A stretch of 53,467 nt of DNA, taken from positions 1 to 53,467 of the IMG/VR virus record IMGVR_UViG_3300004151_000011; one strand, given 5' to 3'. The notes under the pieces are model-generated. The model searched no databases. It was not told the origin of the DNA and worked only from the letters and a program-made list of their open reading frames with translations. This DNA is from a virus. Of the stretch, positions 3,395-43,037 are shown piece by piece; within the stretch, counting starts at the first letter, position 1; the number at the start of each line of letters is the position of its first letter. A program made the position numbers and the translations under genes.

Positions 3395-3998
3395 GGGTTC
3401 CACCATGGCATCTGACTTCTCACCGCAAATAGCGAATATTAACAAATTACTTTTGGAAAAAATCCGCGTTTCGCAGGTTGAAATGGCGCGGAAATTAGTA
3501 TCGCTTGTCGTGAGGAAAAGCAATCCATCCGTAATTGAGACAATTGTTGATGGTGTTCATGGAAGATCAATTGAAGATGTTCAGCCATTCGGAGTAATAG
3601 AAGTCCATTTCGGCTATGATATTGCCGAGATAATATCTGCCGCTATTGAAATTCTTAGCGCAGTAAGCCCAATAAAGACTGGGGCTTATCAGAGATCTCA
3701 TCAGGTATACATTAATGGATCGATGGTTTCAGATATTGCAGAGCTTGGATCAGAAAAAAATATAGTGATTGCCAGTACTCTTCCATACTCAAATAAAATA
3801 GAGCATGGGCAGTCACCTCAGGCGCCAGACGGTGTTTATTCACATGCCGCAGAAACGCTAGCGCGCCGTTTTGGTAATAAATATCACATCGAAGCTGGGT
3901 GGGCTGGTTTTGGAGGGGGCGCCGTTATGGGCGGCTCGGCCGGAAACAAGTCGGCGGTCCGCTATCCCGCCCTCATCATCGATCGGATTGCACCATGA
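3393..3998 (+). CDS. Minor tail / tail completion-like protein, AT-rich
   Basis: A 201-residue protein between the chaperone and the tape measure. It probably starts at TTG 3393, eight bases after AGGAGG; ATG 3405 is possible but lies farther from the Shine-Dalgarno. Segments such as LSAVSPIKTGAYQRSHQVYING and ASTLPYSNKIEHGQSPQAPDGVYSHAAETLARRF follow the pattern of HK97 gp10-like proteins ('spvdtG.lr.s', 'yA..vE.G...ap.g.l..a'), which complete the tail end. The gene has far lower GC than its neighbours, which suggests recent exchange. Confidence 0.6.
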   Translation: MGSTMASDFSPQIANINKLLLEKIRVSQVEMARKLVSLVVRKSNPSVIETIVDGVHGRSIEDVQPFGVIEVHFGYDIAEIISAAIEILSAVSPIKTGAYQRSHQVYINGSMVSDIAELGSEKNIVIASTLPYSNKIEHGQSPQAPDGVYSHAAETLARRFGNKYHIEAGWAGFGGGAVMGGSAGNKSAVRYPALIIDRIAP

Positions 3999-6900
3999 GT
4001 GACGACGTTGTTGAACTCCGCGTTGACGCCTCCGCAGGTGTGCGGGCTTACCAGGAAATGGTGGACGCCGCCGCCAGAGCATCAGAAGCGCAGGCGCGAT
4101 TCGCTTCGACCATGTCCCTGTCGTCCGACAAAATGGGTGGAGCTGCCGCTCAAGCATCCGCTTTTGCTGACGCTGCGCGAAAGGCATCGACGGAGCTGGA
4201 GCGTGTCGGCTTCACTCAGAGTGGAGCAGCGGCGGCAAGAATGTCCGACGCGCTTGGCCTTGCGTCGTCTGGTATCGGTCAGATGTCAGGTGGATCGCTG
4301 GCTGCATCTGAGGCGCTGGCATTCCATGCCGCTCAAATGCAACGCGCGACCGAGGCCGCTCGCACTGCAACTGATGCCCACAGTAGGCTGTCTGCTGCCA
4401 CCACTGTGGCTACCACGCATATTGCTGGAGCAGCCAGCGCGCTGGACCTCATCAGCAAGGCGGCTGGGGCGGCATCGACTGGGCTTGATGCGGTGGGGCT
4501 TGTGCCTGCCGGTATAGCAGCATCCGAGGCCTCAGCAAAAATCTCCACTGTCGTTGGCGTCATGAACACCGCGTCGGCCGCCGCCGGCTATCTCTCCGAG
4601 CTGGTTTCGAAATTTTCCAGCGAGACGGTAAGCGCCGCTGATGCAAATCAGTCATTGGCCAAGGTCTCAGTGCAGGCCGTTGACGCGGAAGGCAACCTCC
4701 TTGTCGAGACAAAAGATCTTGTTGGTGCGACAGAAAGCTTAGCAAATGCAGCGACGCGGGCTAGCGATACCCAAGATTCATTGACCGGGTATTACATCAC
4801 CGCCGCTGCTGCTCTTGCTACATTAACGACAGCGACATATCTAGCTTATAAGGCGATTGAATATATCGCCGAAAAAATCTCCGAGGCCATTGCCGCAGAG
4901 CAGGCATGGGAAGGAGAAATTTCTGGTTCGACGGCGCTACTCGCCGCACTTTCCGACGCCAGCCTTGCGGCGGCCGATGCGCATCGCCTCCTCACCCTGG
5001 AAATGGGATCCGGGGCTGATGTAATGGCAAAAGCCGGAGGAATTGCACGAGATTATGGCATCTCCCAGGAAGCCGCCGCATCTGCCCTGCGCCATGTCAA
5101 CGATATCCTTGATGATACCAACGACGGGGGGGCAAAAGGCCGAGAGATTTTTAAGGATCTAGGTATTACGGCTGATAACGCGGCAGAAGCTCTCGACAAG
5201 TTTGCTCAAAGGATGGCAGGCATCAAAGACAGCTCTGCCAAAATGCACACAATTCGCGAGGTTCTGGGAGAGAATGCTCAGCAGTTTCTGGACGGGATCG
5301 CCACTGGAGCAGGGAGTATTTCGCACGCCTTTACTGAACTTGATAGAATCCAGAAGGCCAACGCGAACGCAATCGCTGACAGCAATGCGAGAATAAGAGA
5401 ACTGGACCGCGCATATATTGCCGATCAAGAATCTAAAAAGGCGGCGACAAAAGAGTTTGAGGAAAGGCAGGTTGCGGCCCTTTTGCACATATCCCTCGCA
5501 GCAAAAGAATTTGCGCACGAGTATTCATCTGCTATGGCGTCTGTCGAAAGCGGTGGCGAAACGATATCCAGTGCTTGGGATAAAACCGTTCGCCTGATGG
5601 AGCGCATCCCCGGCCTTATGGCCGCAGCGGCACGGTCCGTCCAAGACTATGCCCAGGTGGCAGCGCACGCCGCCGTCCCCCGCTTGGTCAATCCGCCGGC
5701 TATCCCCGATAAGGTGGATAGTCGTCCTGATGATCCGTCAGTGCATAAGCGCGAAGTCTCAGCGACCGATGCATCGACGAGCAAAGCCGTTGAGGCAGCC
5801 CGGGCTGCACTGGAGGCGCTGAAGCTCCAGGAGGAAAACTGGTTGACCTGGAGCCGGCAGAAGGAGATCGAATATTGGGCGCAGAAGCGCCAGACCATGC
5901 TGTCCGAAATGCCGAAAACCCTCTCTGCCGAGGAGGCGGCGCAAACGGCAGGCGTCAAGCAAATCGACGCCATCATGCAAGGTCTCAGACGGGATGAGGC
6001 CAAGGCGCGCGCGACGGCCGAAGAGACGGCCCGGAAAGAGCGGGAAACGGCCTCGAACGCCGAGGCTGACCGCGCCCTGAAAGCAACCGTGCTGCGTCTG
6101 CGCGCTGAAGAGCAGGAGGTTGCCAAAAATGGCGAGGCCCACGTTGCCAAGCAGCGGGAAATTGCCGAGGCAGTCAGGGCGGCAAAGGGGGATGATTCCG
6201 TCGAATACCTTGCCGAGCTTGTCAAGCTTCAACAGGCCGAGCGCGAGGCCGGGCAGCAAGTGGCTCGAATCAAAATGGCCTCGGCGGAGACATCATCCAA
6301 AATCGCTTTGGCTGGGCTTGAAGCTGAGCGCGAAATTCTCGCCCAGCGTCGAGCTATGGGCGAAATTTCTGCCGTTGAAGAAGCGGATCTGGCTATTGAG
6401 ATTGAGGACAAAAAGAGGGCTGTAAAACTTGCAGCCGCCCAACAGCGGCTTGTAGATTTGAAAATTCACGATTCGATGAATCTTGAAGAAATCAAAAAGG
6501 CAGAATCATCCGTCACGCAGTTGATGGCCGAGCAACAGACACAGAGAACAAGAGATCTTAAGTCTGCATTGCTTGAGAGGCAAAGGGCATCAAAGGCTAC
6601 ATCAAGCATTGAATCAGATGGCCTTGCTAATCAAGCCAGCTACGGCGTGTCAATACAAGAGGAAAATCTTTCCTTCGGAAAATCAATGGGGACTGTCGAC
6701 GGTAGGGAAGAAATCGCGTCGCTGCGGCAGATCGCCGAGCAGAAATATCAAATTGAACGAGACTTGCTCGATAAGAAACTTCAACTCGCCGGCCAGGATG
6801 AGGCAGCTCGGGCAACGGTCGCCAATCAATTGGTCGACCTCGAACAGCGGCGAGCTCTGCGGACACTCCAGATCGACCACCAGGAAGTCATCGGCCGTCA

Positions 6901-21963: not shown

Positions 21964-22004
21964 GTATCTACAAAAACAGACCAGAACAAGGTTTTTGTAG
22001 ATAC
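21964..22004. promoter_or_regulatory. brnTA operator-promoter
   Basis: GTATCTACAAAAAC (21964-21977) and GTTTTTGTAGATAC (21991-22004) form a perfect 14-base inverted repeat around 13 bases. On the minus strand TTGTTC within the loop and TACGAT 17 bases on could be -35 and -10, placing the transcript start near brnT. The arms are probably BrnA sites. Confidence 0.7.
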
Positions 22005-22100: not shown

Positions 22101-23333
22101 ATGCTGATGGGCATTCGAAAATCCTCATACACGCCCAAGAGCGGCAAGCCGGGCTGGGTGTGCGATTACCGGGACGCGGCCGGGAAACGGCACCAGGAAT
22201 CGTTTCCGACCCGGGCGGCGGCGCAGGCGCGTTATGTTGAGGTCCAGGAGCAGATCCGGGCCGGGACGCATGTGGCGAGCAGCGACTCGCCGACGGTGGC
22301 GCGGGCGGCTGAACTGTTCTTGACGGCGATCGAGCAGGACGGCGCGGCCCCCTCGACGCTGGCCGGGCACAGGCTGGCCTACAACAACCAGATCGCCCCG
22401 CTGCTGGCTGGCCGTCGGCTGTCGGCCATTACCCCGGCAACGGTGCAGGCGTTTCTCGATGATCTGTCTGCGGCCGGGCGGAGCGATGACACGGTGAGCC
22501 GGGCCAAAAAGACGCTGGGCGCGATCATCGATGAGGCGATCAGGACGGGCCGGGCGGCACACAATCCGGTTCGGGCGCTCCGGGCGCGGCGACGAATCCG
22601 GCGGCGGGACATTGAGGCGCGATCCTCGACCCGGGCGGTCTGCCCCGAGCGGGAGGACGTGCGGGCGCTGATTGAGGGCGCTGACGCCAGCAAGGCTTGG
22701 CCGACTGGCGGCGGCCCGGTGCGGGCGGCTCCCTGGCTCCAGCCCTGGCTGGCCTGCATTGCGCTGGCCGGACTTCGGCCGGGGGAAGCCCGAGGCCTGA
22801 CCTGGGGTGCGGTCAATCTGGAGGCCGGCTGGATCGAGGTGCGGACGGCGGCAGACGCTTGGGGTAACCTTGGCCCGGTCAAAACGGCGGCCGCGCTGCG
22901 GCGAGTGCCGATCGGTGATATCCTGCTCGGAATGCTGCGGGATTGGCGTGGGGTGTGTCCAGCCAATGCGGCGGGTCTAGTCTTTGCCTCCAGCGGGAGC
23001 CGGGTCAAACCGGGCCGCGTGCCAGTCTTGTCGCTGACTAACATTATCCGCAATCAGTTCGACCCGCTCCAGCGCCGGCTCAGGCTGGTGGGTGAGGACG
23101 GGGAGCCCCGGTATACGCCGCACAAGTTGCGGCATTTCGCCGTCAGCCTGTGGATCGACGAGGGCGCCGATGTCAAGCAGATCAGTCAATGGGTCGGGCA
23201 TGAGTCAGCGGCGTTTACCCTCGATGTCTATGGCCACCTGTTCCAAGCGCGGGCACTGGACCGGACCACGGCGTCGGCGGGTGAGCGGTCGGTGTTTGGG
23301 CTGATTGGGGCGCGGCAGGAAGCGGTGCGTTAG
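22101..23333 (+). CDS. int: Tyrosine recombinase (phage integrase)
   Basis: A 410-residue integrase. The N-terminal part (SGKPGWVCDYRDAAGKRHQESFPTRAAAQARYVEV) is an arm-binding domain, followed by a SAM-like core-binding domain. Catalytic residues are visible: R226 in ALAGLRPGEARG, a lysine in GPVKTAAALRRVPI, H341-x2-R344 in HKLRHF, H367 in WVGHES and nucleophile Y377 in LDVYGH. It joins attP and attB for lysogeny. ATG 22101 or 22107. The gene lies beside the plasmid module, so integration and plasmid maintenance genes are adjacent. I could not identify attP. Confidence 0.93.
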   Translation: MLMGIRKSSYTPKSGKPGWVCDYRDAAGKRHQESFPTRAAAQARYVEVQEQIRAGTHVASSDSPTVARAAELFLTAIEQDGAAPSTLAGHRLAYNNQIAPLLAGRRLSAITPATVQAFLDDLSAAGRSDDTVSRAKKTLGAIIDEAIRTGRAAHNPVRALRARRRIRRRDIEARSSTRAVCPEREDVRALIEGADASKAWPTGGGPVRAAPWLQPWLACIALAGLRPGEARGLTWGAVNLEAGWIEVRTAADAWGNLGPVKTAAALRRVPIGDILLGMLRDWRGVCPANAAGLVFASSGSRVKPGRVPVLSLTNIIRNQFDPLQRRLRLVGEDGEPRYTPHKLRHFAVSLWIDEGADVKQISQWVGHESAAFTLDVYGHLFQARALDRTTASAGERSVFGLIGARQEAVR

Positions 23334-32032: not shown

Positions 32033-32553
32033 GCCGCACCGTCCCGGCCTTCGGCCTGGGCAATCAGGGCGGAAACTTCAGCCTTGGTCGGAAGTTTCAG
32101 GGGCGGGCATTTGACGCACCGATATTGGTAGCGCCTCGTAAAATCACCGACAATAGAACGGTTCCACCCAAAGGGGCATAATTCAGGATCGCGCCCGTAA
32201 GTCTTGGTTAAAAGGTCAACCAGCGACCCAACCGTGGAACCCGCTTCTGGGTAAGCTTGCCACGGACCTGCTGAAACATCGTTATAAACAACCCTAACTT
32301 CCCAGCTGTGAGAAATCTCCTTTTGCTCTTCCCTCTCCCATTCCTTGCAAATCGGGATATCAAGGTCATGAATAAACCAGCACCATGCAACCTGATGGTT
32401 AGTCAAAAAGTCCGACATGCGAGCGGATAAGCGGCCTTTTAAGGTCGGAATGGCAATTCGTTTTTCCCACGCCTCCCGCAGCCATTCGCGCTTTTCGTCA
32501 ATGTTCAGAAGTGTCTCAAGCTCTGCCTCTGACCATTCGGATCTGTCAACCAT
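32029..32553 (-). CDS. Hypothetical early protein, partly AT-rich
   Basis: A 174-residue protein starting VDRSEWSEAELETLLNIDEKREWLREAW. It is rich in Trp and acidic residues and carries a late CVKCPP pair. The middle is lower in GC than the flanks. Coupled by four-base overlap to the gene below; it overlaps the end of the damaged XF1762-like gene above. No family assigned. Confidence 0.65.
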   Translation of the reverse strand: MVDRSEWSEAELETLLNIDEKREWLREAWEKRIAIPTLKGRLSARMSDFLTNHQVAWCWFIHDLDIPICKEWEREEQKEISHSWEVRVVYNDVSAGPWQAYPEAGSTVGSLVDLLTKTYGRDPELCPFGWNRSIVGDFTRRYQYRCVKCPPLKLPTKAEVSALIAQAEGRDGAA

Positions 32554-33053
32554 GTCGCACCTCCTCGGCGCTGACCTCGCCCGGCCCGACGCGCAGGCGC
32601 CGGCCGGAGGGGTATTGCTCGAACAGCAACTTGGGCTCGGTCGGGTGGGTATCGACGCGCGGCCGACCTAGGCGGGACCAAGACCCGCCGCCACGCTCGC
32701 CAATCAAGCGCCACCCGGCGGCGCGGAGGCTGGCCCCGGTCTCGCTGGCGAGCGATGTACGTCCCGATCCGGTGGTAGCCAAGGGCGAACGCAGCTCGAG
32801 CTGCGGCGCCATAGAGGGCCGAGCAGGCGTTACGGGTGCCGTCCGTGCAGAGCCGCGTCACCTCCAGCGTCAGGCCATCATCGCGATGACGGGACGTTGG
32901 GCGCCCGACGATCGCCACACCAACAATGACGCCCTCCAGCGCCGCGCCCAGGCTGAATTTGTGCCCGATCACAGGGCGATGGTGGCGGTGATACTGCTCG
33001 GTGAAGGCGTTGGCCTCGGCCAAGTCGAGAGGAACAATGGCAAGCCGGCTCAT
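32546..33053 (-). pseudogene. XF1762-like N-acetyltransferase-fold protein, broken by a one-base frameshift
   Basis: Frame one starts at ATG 33053: SRLAIVPLDLAEANAFTEQYHRHHRPVIGHKFSLG, VGVAIVGRPTSRH.DDG.TLEVTRLCTDGTRNACSALYGAAARAAFALGYHRIGTY. The family's continuation (SLASETGASLRAAGWRLIGERGGGSWSRLGRPRVDTHPTEPK) is found in another frame, ending at 32546. Skipping one base near 32754-32758 joins them without gap. So a single-base insertion disrupts an otherwise intact gene; a sequencing error or recoding are the alternatives. The XF1762 family is common in phage early regions, function unknown. Confidence 0.75.
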
Positions 33054-33223
33054 GACGCTACCTCGATCTCTCTCGGCATCACCCGCAGCGTGTCGCCGGC
33101 GGGCAGCCGGACGCGATATCCGGCGGGGATCGACCCGTGTGCCCAGGTCGAGCGGCCAACGATGGTGGCCGGGCCGGCATAGTCCGGCGCGGTCACGGTG
33201 ACGGGGGAGCCAAGGGCCGGCAT
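33050..33223 (-). CDS. Hypothetical small beta protein
   Basis: A 57-residue protein (GSPVTVTAPDYAGPATIVGRSTWAHGSIPAGYRVRLPAGDTLRV) that reads as an SH3-like small barrel. It overlaps the XF1762-like gene start (ATGA) and follows the next gene closely. No family assigned. Confidence 0.6.
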   Translation of the reverse strand: MPALGSPVTVTAPDYAGPATIVGRSTWAHGSIPAGYRVRLPAGDTLRVMPREIEVAS

Positions 33224-33555
33224 CACGCGGCCCTCCCCTTGGCGGCCCACGCATCAGCGCGGGCGCTATCGGCCATGGCCTGGCCGCGCTCATCAACCAG
33301 CCACGCGGCAATCTGCTGCCAAAGCAGATCAGACGGGGCCAACTCGCGGTAGACCGGCTTATGCGGCTTACCGTCCGTCCGGGGCGGAACATCGACGGGC
33401 ACGCCATACAGGTCGATGCGTTCGATCTGCGGGCCATCACCGGTCAGGTAAAAGCGGGCCGTGCCCTCGATCTCAATCTCATCGCCCAGCGCGAGGCCGG
33501 ATCTGACCAGGGTCATGGGATGGGTAAAATCGTATCCGTGCAGCATGATCATCAC
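33223..33555 (-). CDS. Hypothetical early protein
   Basis: About 110 residues. The first half is strand-rich (LALGDEIEIEGTARFYLTGDGPQIERIDLYGVPVD), the second helical (LAPSDLLWQQIAAWLVDERGQAMADSARADAW). Start at GTG 33555 overlapping the upstream stop, or ATG 33552 or 33546. No family assigned. Confidence 0.6.
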   Translation of the reverse strand: MMIMLHGYDFTHPMTLVRSGLALGDEIEIEGTARFYLTGDGPQIERIDLYGVPVDVPPRTDGKPHKPVYRELAPSDLLWQQIAAWLVDERGQAMADSARADAWAAKGRAA

Positions 33556-40960: not shown

Positions 40961-41371
40961 ATGACGGATACCCCCCAGATCACTGCCGAAGTTTCGCGCG
41001 TCGTTTCGGCATTCGTTTCGAACAATTCCATTTCATCTACCGAACTGCCCTCGCTCATCCGGTCTGTGCATGATGCCCTCGCAGGCCTCGGTCAGTCGGT
41101 CACCACCATCCCCGAGGCGCAACCGGCAGTGTCGGTCAAAAAATCGGTGACCCCGGACGCGATCGTCTGCCTTGAGTGCGGCGAAAAGCTGAAGATGCTC
41201 AAGCGGCACTTGCGGACCGACCACGGCCTGACCCCGGATGAGTATCGCGCCAAGTGGAGGCTGCCGGCCGATTACCCGATGGTTGCACCCAATTATGCTA
41301 CCCATCGGTCTCGGATCGCGAGATCCGCCGGCTTGGGGCACTGGCGGCGGGGCCAGCAGGCGGCCGAGTGA
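40961..41371 (+). CDS. MucR/Ros-family zinc-finger regulator
   Basis: A 136-residue protein of the MucR/Ros family. The zinc finger has C70-x2-C73-x9-H83-x4-H88 in CLECGEKLKMLKRHLRTDHGL, followed by the conserved TPDEYRAKWRLPADYPMVAPNYATHRSRIARSAGLG. Host MucR/Ros proteins bind AT-rich DNA and control cell-cycle, surface and virulence genes. A phage copy could silence phage genes or reprogramme the host. A 200-base AT-rich upstream region with a GACT-TACTT/AGTAA-AGTC-like hairpin suits MucR autoregulation. Confidence 0.9.
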   Translation: MTDTPQITAEVSRVVSAFVSNNSISSTELPSLIRSVHDALAGLGQSVTTIPEAQPAVSVKKSVTPDAIVCLECGEKLKMLKRHLRTDHGLTPDEYRAKWRLPADYPMVAPNYATHRSRIARSAGLGHWRRGQQAAE

Positions 41372-42025: not shown

Positions 42026-42062
42026 AAGTGCGCCCGGAGCGATCCGAGGCGCACTTTCTGTT
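42026..42062 (+). terminator. Intrinsic terminator
   Basis: AAGTGCGCC (42026-42034) pairs with GGCGCACTT (42048-42056); inside, CGGA and TCCG pair around GCGA. The 13 base pairs are followed by TCTGTTTC. It separates the rightward gene from the XRE gene on the other strand. Confidence 0.75.
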
Positions 42063-42278
42063 TCAGGGGGTGCCGTCACCCCACGCCTTGATGCGGTGGT
42101 ACAGCGCGGCGCAAGCCAGGGCGACAGAGTGCGGTATTTCGACCGCACGGCCATCATCCCGCCGCCGGCCCGCCTCGTATAGCTCAATCGTGGTCTTGCT
42201 AAGTCCGAGAGCTTCCCCTGCCTTGATCTGGGACAGGCCCATCGCCGATCGCCATTCCTTGAACTGTTCGGGTTTCAT
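42063..42278 (-). CDS. XRE-family regulator
   Basis: A 71-residue helix-turn-helix protein (KPEQFKEWRSAMGLSQIKAGEALGLSKTTIELYEAGRRRDDGRAVEIPHSVALACAALYHRIKAWG), of the compact alphaproteobacterial type. It lies downstream of a 22-residue peptide gene on the same strand; both would be read from the promoter at 42480-42508, whose spacer holds the dyad GCGTACA-T-TGTACGC, the probable target of this protein. Confidence 0.8.
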   Translation of the reverse strand: MKPEQFKEWRSAMGLSQIKAGEALGLSKTTIELYEAGRRRDDGRAVEIPHSVALACAALYHRIKAWGDGTP

Positions 42279-42295
42279 CGCCTACAATCTCCATC

Positions 42296-42441
42296 AGGAG
42301 GTGACGCGGGTCCTTATCTCCTGCGGTGGAGCCGGTTTCCCGGCCCCACCTTTTGGTTTACCAGGCTGCGTGCGTGTCGGCCAAGATCAGCAGCGCAACC
42401 AGGATTGCCAGTTTCAGGAGCTTCATTCCGCGTCACCTCCT
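42296..42441. repeat. Perfect 14-base inverted repeat enclosing the peptide gene
   Basis: AGGAGGTGACGCGG (42296-42309) is the exact reverse complement of 42428-42441. In the leftward transcript the upstream arm is the Shine-Dalgarno of the peptide gene, and the downstream arm is its full complement 118 bases later. Between them GGTGGxGCCGG pairs with CCGGCxCCACC around GAAA. The mRNA can fold to hide the Shine-Dalgarno. Confidence 0.75.
42358..42426 (-). CDS. 22-residue hydrophobic peptide with perfect Shine-Dalgarno
   Basis: ATG 42426 encodes MKLLKLAILVALLILAD plus five residues: two lysines, then an uninterrupted apolar helix. AAAGGAGGTGA upstream is a full anti-16S match, far stronger than most starts in this window. 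The length and make-up fit a membrane-active type I toxin, a leader peptide or an entericidin/holin-like accessory peptide. The complement of the Shine-Dalgarno in the same mRNA suggests tight translational control. Confidence 0.6.
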   Translation of the reverse strand: MKLLKLAILVALLILADTHAAW

Positions 42442-42479
42442 TTCGTTTTGTCATTGGGATCATCCCCGCTGACAAAATA

Positions 42480-42524
42480 AATTTAGCGTACATTGTACGC
42501 TATATCAATGAAAAACAGCGTACA
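42480..42524 (-). promoter_or_regulatory. Leftward promoter with operator dyad in the spacer
   Basis: On the minus strand TTGATA (42508-42503) and TAAATT (42485-42480) are 17 bases apart. The spacer is almost filled by the perfect dyad GCGTACA-T-TGTACGC (42486-42500), and a further GCGTACA half-site lies at 42518-42524, 32 bases from the first. Probably bound by the XRE protein encoded at 42063-42278. Confidence 0.7.
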
Positions 42525-42573: not shown

Positions 42574-42651
42574 CGGTGTGTAGCTCAGCCAGGCCAGAGC
42601 ATCGCGTTTGGGACGCGAGGGCCGGCGGTTCGAATCCGTCCACACCGACCA
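42574..42651 (+). tRNA. tRNA-Pro(TGG)
   Basis: A complete 78-base cloverleaf with encoded CCA. Acceptor CGGTGTG pairs with CACACCG, anticodon stem TCGCG/CGCGA, loop TTTGGGA with anticodon TGG, T arm GGCGG-TTCGAAT-CCGTC. It reads CCA proline codons, which are used little by a GC-rich host but more by the AT-rich phage genes. Confidence 0.93.
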
Positions 42652-42652
42652 T

Positions 42653-42727
42653 GGGGCCTTAGCTCAGTTGGGAGAGCATCGCGCTTGCATCGCGAAGGTC
42701 GGGGGTTCGAGCCCCCAGGCTCCACCA
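42653..42727 (+). tRNA. tRNA-Ala(TGC), one base short in the T arm
   Basis: Acceptor GGGGCCT/AGGCTCC with CCA encoded, standard D arm, anticodon stem TCGCG/CGCGA and loop CTTGCAT with anticodon TGC. The T arm is GGGGG-TTCGAG-CCCCC, with six instead of seven loop bases, making the gene 75 instead of 76 bases. It begins two bases after the tRNA-Pro gene. Confidence 0.88.
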
Positions 42728-42785
42728 AGATCTGGTGCCACGCAAGGCGTGCGGTAATCAGGTTGTCGAGAACCAGACGGGGTGA

Positions 42786-42858
42786 TTGGGCGTAGCTCAG
42801 TTGGGAGAGCACCTTCCGGGCCGGAAGGAGGTCGGCGGTTCAAGTCCGTCCGCCCACG
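42786..42858 (+). tRNA. tRNA-like sequence, anticodon position GGC (Ala?), lacking U33 and CCA
   Basis: The D arm (GCTC-AGTTGGGA-GAGC) and T arm (GGCGG-TTCAAGT-CCGTC) are canonical and the acceptor TTGGGCG/CGCCCAC has one mismatch at the first pair. The anticodon stem CCTTC/GAAGG closes a loop CGGGCCG, so position 33 is G where nearly all tRNAs have U. CCA is not encoded. It is either a decaying tRNA or a tRNA-like RNA with another use. Confidence 0.55.
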
Positions 42859-42961
42859 CGATCTGGGTGCCGCAAGGCATGATGTAAAACGAGGCGTCGA
42901 GACCACGCCTATCGACAACCCGGCGGGGCGATCCCGCCACCAGACCCAAGACACCGACCAC

Positions 42962-43037
42962 GCCGCCTTAGCTCATCAGGTAGAGCGCCGGCCTTGTAAA
43001 CCGGAGGCGCGGGGATCGTGACCCCGAGGCGGCTCCA
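42962..43037 (+). tRNA. tRNA-Thr(TGT)
   Basis: A 76-base cloverleaf with encoded CCA. Acceptor GCCGCCT/AGGCGGC, D stem GCTC/GAGC, anticodon loop CTTGTAA with TGT, T stem CGGGG/CCCCG. The T loop reads ATCGTGA instead of the usual TTCGAnT, and the last anticodon-stem pair is C-A, so it is divergent from cellular tRNAs. Confidence 0.85.

Follow-up and report, generated by a model that had tools for sequence, protein, structure and literature searches.

The window analysed here is a stretch of 53,467 nucleotides, positions 1–53,467 of the virus record IMGVR_UViG_3300004151_000011, belonging to a temperate phage with integrase and anti-repressor genes. On its minus strand a 22-codon open reading frame (ORF) follows a Shine–Dalgarno (SD) sequence that has a perfect complement further along the same mRNA. 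This raises the question of whether the two arms pair in the RNA and so mask the start of translation, and what part the peptide, the pairing and the regulator gene beyond them might play in the phage.

Organization of the unit

The elements of the unit are itemized in full in Table 1. All the components that a preliminary description had read from the window sequence are found in their places: the peptide ORF, the SD arm and its perfect 14-nt complement separated by 118 nt, the GAAA-capped stem of 11 bp between them, a promoter with an overlapping operator dyad, and the gene of an XRE-family protein after the peptide gene. The promoter, dyad and XRE gene are kept in relatives, and this supports the view of a transcription unit that is self-contained. 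The feature is larger than was described, with about 26 homologous units in other phages and prophages and a conserved antisense promoter. There is one perfect 14-nt inverted repeat with a loop of 60–220 nt in the window, compared with 0.07 expected under a first-order Markov null, and the dyad AGCGTACATTGTACGCT is single in a pattern scan permitting three mismatches. At 21964–22004, shortly before the integrase gene (22101–23333), a short loop separates the arms of another perfect 14-nt inverted repeat, possibly a terminator or attachment site.

Table 1. Elements of the unit, with positions in the window and the basis of each assignment
Element	Position	Strand	Basis
Leader peptide ORF MKLLKLAILVALLILADTHAAW, 22 codons	42358..42426	-	Homologous in-frame ORF in 25/25 members analysed; selection z = 6.3
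P1 5′ arm, the Shine–Dalgarno sequence AGGAGGTGACGCGG	42428..42441	-	Pairing, opening cost, covariation
P1 3′ arm (masking arm) CCGCGTCACCTCCT, exact complement of AGGAGGTGACGCGG	42296..42309	-	Covaries with the 5′ arm across relatives
P2 5′ strand CTCCTG (inner helix)	42415..42420	-	Predicted folds
P2 3′ strand CAGGAG	42318..42323	-	Predicted folds
P4 hairpin, GAAA cap	42325..42350	-	Most relatives have a GNRA, UUCG or UACG loop
P0 5′-terminal hairpin, at the predicted transcript start	42446..42477	-	Fold; hairpin also present in relatives
Sense promoter TTGATA-17-TAAATT, sigma70-like	42480..42508	-	Many members also have a match near −54 relative to the ORF start
Operator dyad AGCGTACATTGTACGCT, within the promoter spacer	42485..42501	.	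GTAC-type dyads equally placed in many relatives
Second operator half-site TGTACGCT	42517..42524	.	Two dyads common in relatives
XRE-family regulator, 71 aa, proposed autorepressor	42063..42278	-	HTH_31, HTH_3; alignment
Antisense promoter TTGAAC-18-TACAAT, in XRE codons and spacer	42259..42288	+	Conserved match; start predicted near 42295 (P1 3′ arm)
G+C-rich hairpin beyond XRE; weak T tract, possibly a terminator	42028..42054	-	Read from sequence

Occurrence in other genomes

Units were sought with the XRE protein as the first query, followed by alignment-based searches and one DNA pattern. Nearly all of those found are in phage contigs or prophages, and one is on an Azospirillum plasmid record (a 1.9 Mb megaplasmid). 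A covariance model trained on 15 units returned a single unit from most records. Of two units reached through the XRE protein search, that of the phage L002 retains arms of 13 nt, and in that of L005 (MW202613) the arms are diverged in sequence yet complementary (AGGGGGTGTTGCG and CGCAACACCCCCT). A hairpin with mostly a GNRA or UNCG cap, operator dyads, the 5′ hairpin and the XRE gene are conserved across the units. In the region 3817–4273 of MW202613 the public annotation omits the XRE gene, and has opposite-strand ORFs in its place.

A 28-kb phage contig (L034; IMGVR_UViG_3300007067_000022) carries four diverged copies of the unit, at least one of them between baseplate genes. The site of the fourth copy was flagged by the RNA-only model at just 17.9 bits, and a peptide ORF and XRE gene were then read there; P4 is degenerate in this copy. 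A match to the RNA model in L043 was rejected as a unit on inspection, and L004 (Planctomycetaceae) and L003 were likewise found to be non-carriers. Scanning with a DNA pattern of the SD arm alone gave unrelated genes only, besides the record of L002. The leader is absent beside the XRE relatives on plasmids of Azospirillum oryzae, Devosia, Pectobacterium and Agrobacterium. A second XRE gene in the L098 contig (L035, 1580–1850) has another leader, comprising the ORF MQRLERLLKLLALILGIIKLVLDILRG and strong hairpins, and without P1 arms.

Folding of the RNA and masking of the Shine–Dalgarno sequence

The RNA of the window is predicted to fold with a stability exceeding that of dinucleotide shuffles by ∼8 s.d. 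(z = −8.1). Predicted folds place the structure on the sense strand, which folds better than its complement in 22/23 units and on which the P4 loops are GNRA, UUCG or UACG in most. In an alignment of 15 units 91.5% of the cells in P1 and P4 are paired, with changes on both sides at 10 base pairs. The double-change cells number 34, compared with 9.8 on shuffling (0/500 shuffles as high), and this signal collapses if the partner is shifted by a single column. The mean pairing energy of the arms within a unit is −28.1 kcal/mol, compared with −20.1 kcal/mol on pairing with the arms of other members. The exceptions are the A+T-rich L034 and L042, where P1 is imperfect and the own pairing no better than the cross-pairings. 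On this comparison of sequences the P1 pairing is real; the arms change jointly, and complementarity is kept across the relatives. It is this conservation, together with the compensatory changes in the relatives, that decisively confirms the original observation.

The SD sequence of the peptide is very strong in most members. Folding prediction gives a cost of opening it in the nascent RNA of 0.4–9.4 kcal/mol overall (about 0.4–6 kcal/mol in most), with high values of 8–9 kcal/mol in L065 and L098. In the finished RNA the predicted cost is 7–22 kcal/mol overall and 16–22 kcal/mol in most, falling to 7–14 kcal/mol in the A+T-rich L034, L036, L038, L042 and L076. The proposal that the SD is masked by a downstream arm of its own mRNA is thus strongly supported, by the covariation, by the specificity of the arms for their own partners and by the change in opening cost between the nascent and finished states.

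The leader ORF

The ORF comprises 21–32 codons and is found in all 25 units analysed, with the same start position after P1. The start codon is ATG, TTG or GTG; CTG would be required in L089 and L090. Coding was assessed from amino-acid similarity in six groups of equal-length ORFs, using column shuffles. The changed codons have a mean BLOSUM score of 0.99 compared with −0.34 expected (z = 6.3; 0/2000 shuffles), while the other frames give z = −4.0 and −1.5. Stop codons number 0/565 in the peptide frame, and 68/540 and 31/540 in the others. The pair formed by the window and L002 is weak when taken singly (z = 1.4), and the counts by codon position (146/131/160) carry no coding signal by this measure alone. 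From the alignments, the leader ORF is under selection at the level of protein, and putatively translated.

The peptides have 21–32 amino acids and a charge of +1 to +10. Most are basic, polar residues alternating with hydrophobic ones, as in MKIRLRLIIRFCGWHLHLRIKF. Those of the window and L002 are unlike most members, being hydrophobic and nearly uncharged (+1 and +2). The hydrophobic 22-residue peptide noted previously is the unusual form in a family whose members are mostly cationic with the alternating pattern.

The regulator gene and its operators

The XRE gene encodes a protein of ∼70 amino acids consisting only of a helix–turn–helix (HTH) domain (Pfam HTH_31, 3.8e-7), and across the members the P1 region ends about 8–22 nt before its start codon. 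The sense promoter overlies GTAC-type dyads, of which there are often two. The sequence of the dyad varies between units, and this fits autorepression by the XRE protein of each unit; we infer that the protein represses its own promoter through the dyads. A direct interaction between the peptide and the XRE protein may also occur, as in type II systems with an XRE antitoxin.

The position of the RNA, immediately preceding the XRE gene in every member, would suit a cis-regulatory leader in which translation of the short ORF acts as the sensor, the state of P1 sets the level of XRE and the peptide is inert. There is an XRE homologue in L087 with an operator and without the leader, and the leader could thus be an added layer of control. 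However, the peptide is conserved as a protein with no fixed stall motif at its C-terminus across the members, and the very strong SD is that of the peptide rather than that of XRE. Moreover the predicted cost of opening the XRE ribosome site in the folded state is just 0.4–5.4 kcal/mol, so that P1 should hardly gate XRE, and we regard such a sensor as unlikely.

A promoter opposing the unit

The best opposite-strand sigma70-like match of the whole region ends 8–10 nt ahead of the XRE start codon in 22/23 units, with a tie in L089 and second rank by 0.1 in L033. Its −35 box TTGAA is located in the codons around Q-F-K of XRE, and the codon of phenylalanine 6 is TTC in 23/23, whereas in the A+T-rich genes phenylalanine is elsewhere encoded by TTT. 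The promoter scores 10.2 on average, compared with 4.9 (sd 0.45) for spacer-shuffled sequences and 3.4 in leaderless homologues. An antisense promoter matching the consensus is thus supported by conservation, and an antisense RNA is predicted that would start at the P1 3′ arm and run back over the leader. Candidate terminators are P4 read in reverse or a hairpin upstream of the operators, the position varying between units; that in the window is the complement of P4 followed by TTTTGGTTT. Termination at P4 would give an antisense RNA of ∼60 nt in the window, L002, L034, L041 and others. The promoter was missed in the preliminary description, and makes the unit appear more similar to a type I system than was described.

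The unit is antiparallel to the flanking genes wherever the neighbours are identifiable, so that read-through from the phage would yield antisense and not sense RNA. Just past the unit in the window, on the other strand, are four tRNA genes (Pro TGG, Ala TGC, Ala GGC and Thr TGT; 42574–43037), matched by three at this place in L002. Elsewhere the window encodes a Mom-like DNA modification protein (32505–33440; PHROG 1384, 8.7e-27) and a Ros/MucR-type regulator (40961–41371; Pfam 6.7e-48).

The neighbouring genes bear upon another reading, that the promoter within XRE serves late genes or tRNA genes, with interference between the convergent transcripts timing the passage from early to late expression. 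The unit is located before HNH/terminase genes in the window, L002, L041, L065, L081, L084 and L089, and the promoter points at such genes in several phages. In L097 and L098 the unit follows a gene for a NusG-like antiterminator that faces XRE, and in the window and L002 the tRNA genes are directly downstream of the promoter. Yet the L034 contig has four units, of which the one examined is between tail genes, a terminator-like hairpin closes that side in several units, and neither the conserved peptide nor the masked SD is explained. A role in the timing of late expression is consequently improbable.

Comparison with known systems

The combination had been described as matching no known type of toxin–antitoxin system, and this holds within Rfam, Pfam, PHROGs and the literature searched. 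A literature search for a peptide, masking arm and repressor in combination found none, and with Rfam release 15 tRNAs alone reached the gathering threshold in the window and 13 relatives. On the best reading, the logic of the unit is closest to that of aapA/IsoA, and its layout to that of the prophage locus yonT/SR6/yoyJ.

In aapA/IsoA, a type I system of Helicobacter, the full-length mRNA sequesters the SD of the peptide by a long-distance interaction with an anti-SD lying downstream, and there is a cis antisense RNA; nucleolytic trimming removes the anti-SD from the 3′ end of the mRNA, and on the nascent mRNA the SD is masked by hairpins (PMC6733600). Compared by description only, the two have in common a long-distance masked SD and a cis antisense RNA (here predicted). 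The sequestration in the finished mRNA is seen here in the pairing, opening cost and covariation, and the short hydrophobic or amphipathic ORF of a type I system has its counterpart in a putatively translated ORF under protein selection. By contrast the promoter of the present unit is predicted to be operator-bound, and the masking arm is not a trimmed 3′ terminus, with the XRE gene lying beyond it in every member. Nor is a metastable SD hairpin predicted in the nascent RNA of most members, L065 and L098 having the highest opening costs. What sets the unit apart is a repressor (XRE) encoded in cis, together with the absence, in most members, of any strong mask on the nascent RNA.

The yonT/SR6/yoyJ locus of the Bacillus prophage SP-beta gives a polycistronic peptide mRNA, and the antisense RNA spans the 3′ end of the first ORF together with the 5′ end of the gene that follows; yonT encodes 58 amino acids, the downstream gene is a second toxin, and the abstract describes control via RNase III-promoted decay (PMC5848175). 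The likeness lies in the placing of an antisense RNA (here predicted) between two genes of one mRNA, the first of which encodes a peptide. It differs in that the downstream gene there is a toxin and the abstract makes no mention of a masking arm, while here the downstream gene is a repressor and a masking arm is present.

The hok/Sok system of plasmid R1 has mok/hok coupling and an end-to-end fbi pairing, makes another peptide and is not known to encode a repressor. The present unit shows no such coupling or end-to-end pairing, and encodes a proposed repressor. A 59-codon ORF (42314–42493, minus strand) overlaps the peptide ORF of the window in another frame; this frame is stop-rich across the members, so that no conserved mok-like ORF is seen. 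In hok/Sok long-range pairing renders the toxin mRNA untranslatable, with control by an antisense RNA (PMC6733600), and in these respects the present unit, with its predicted antisense RNA, is similar.

The Caulobacter sRNA CC2171 (Rfam RF01867) resembles the unit in that it contains both CGAAAGGAGGUGA and a hairpin of GNRA type (E = 0.007 over 201 bases; 21.4 bits compared with a gathering score of 75). Kinship was rejected because the match is below the gathering score and is not seen in five relatives searched equally sensitively, and because CC2171-like sequences of viral contigs lack an XRE gene; their SD hairpin is a local one. L152 and L154 are CC2171-like, with a different short ORF, an extended Shine–Dalgarno sequence GAAAGGAGGTGATCCAGTG and a local CACCTCGCTGGGATC complement.

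Discussion

The chances are about even that this is a self-contained phage module working like a type I toxin–antitoxin system with a built-in repressor; a toxin–antitoxin reading, with the peptide as putative toxin, is plausible. The operator-controlled promoter would direct the synthesis of one mRNA carrying a 5′ hairpin, the short peptide ORF with its very strong SD, and the XRE gene. Folding suggests that the SD would be mostly free while the leader is transcribed, and ribosomes would then make the peptide. Some 120 nt later the complementary arm would emerge, and P1 (the pairing seen in the covariation) would form together with P2 and P4, probably switching off peptide synthesis for the remaining lifetime of the mRNA. 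The XRE ribosome site right 3′ of P1 would still be usable, and the XRE protein would repress the promoter through the dyads, as their position and the differences in operators between members suggest. The promoter in the first codons of XRE would give an antisense RNA, presumably active, with its predicted 5′ end at the masking arm. The likeliest role of the peptide is that of a membrane-active effector serving in the lysogen or upon entry, with synthesis in brief bursts coupled to transcription.

A conserved and very stable fold might also be expected of a trans-acting structured RNA in which the ORF is incidental. This is highly improbable given the strong in-frame protein selection, a frame that is open in every member, and the retention of the SD and start codon despite the drift in arm sequence. 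Although 14-nt inverted repeats can occur randomly, at the 0.07 per window given above for this loop size, the fixed position relative to the ORF and XRE and the GNRA/UNCG hairpin in the relatives leave chance, or the terminal repeats of a mobile element, with a negligible probability, and compensatory change in about 26 relatives refutes it.

Returning to the module of peptide, masking arm and repressor, we tentatively suggest the possibility of a new class of phage control, in which the peptide comes only from nascent mRNA, its start site being locked once the mRNA is complete, the repressor that would end transcription comes from the same mRNA, and an opposing promoter is placed at the lock. 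Taken together the units form a new family of structured RNA, to which belong a family of peptides and a repressor encoded in cis; they are present in phage contigs and an Azospirillum megaplasmid and have been overlooked by annotation. The three layers of repressor, RNA lock and antisense RNA should be separable by simple mutations. If synthesis is indeed confined to nascent mRNA, the output of peptide would tally transcription events rather than mRNA molecules, and a single burst would follow the entry of phage DNA into a repressor-free cell. If the mechanism is correct, the phage could thereby allow a dangerous peptide to be made only while its gene is being transcribed.
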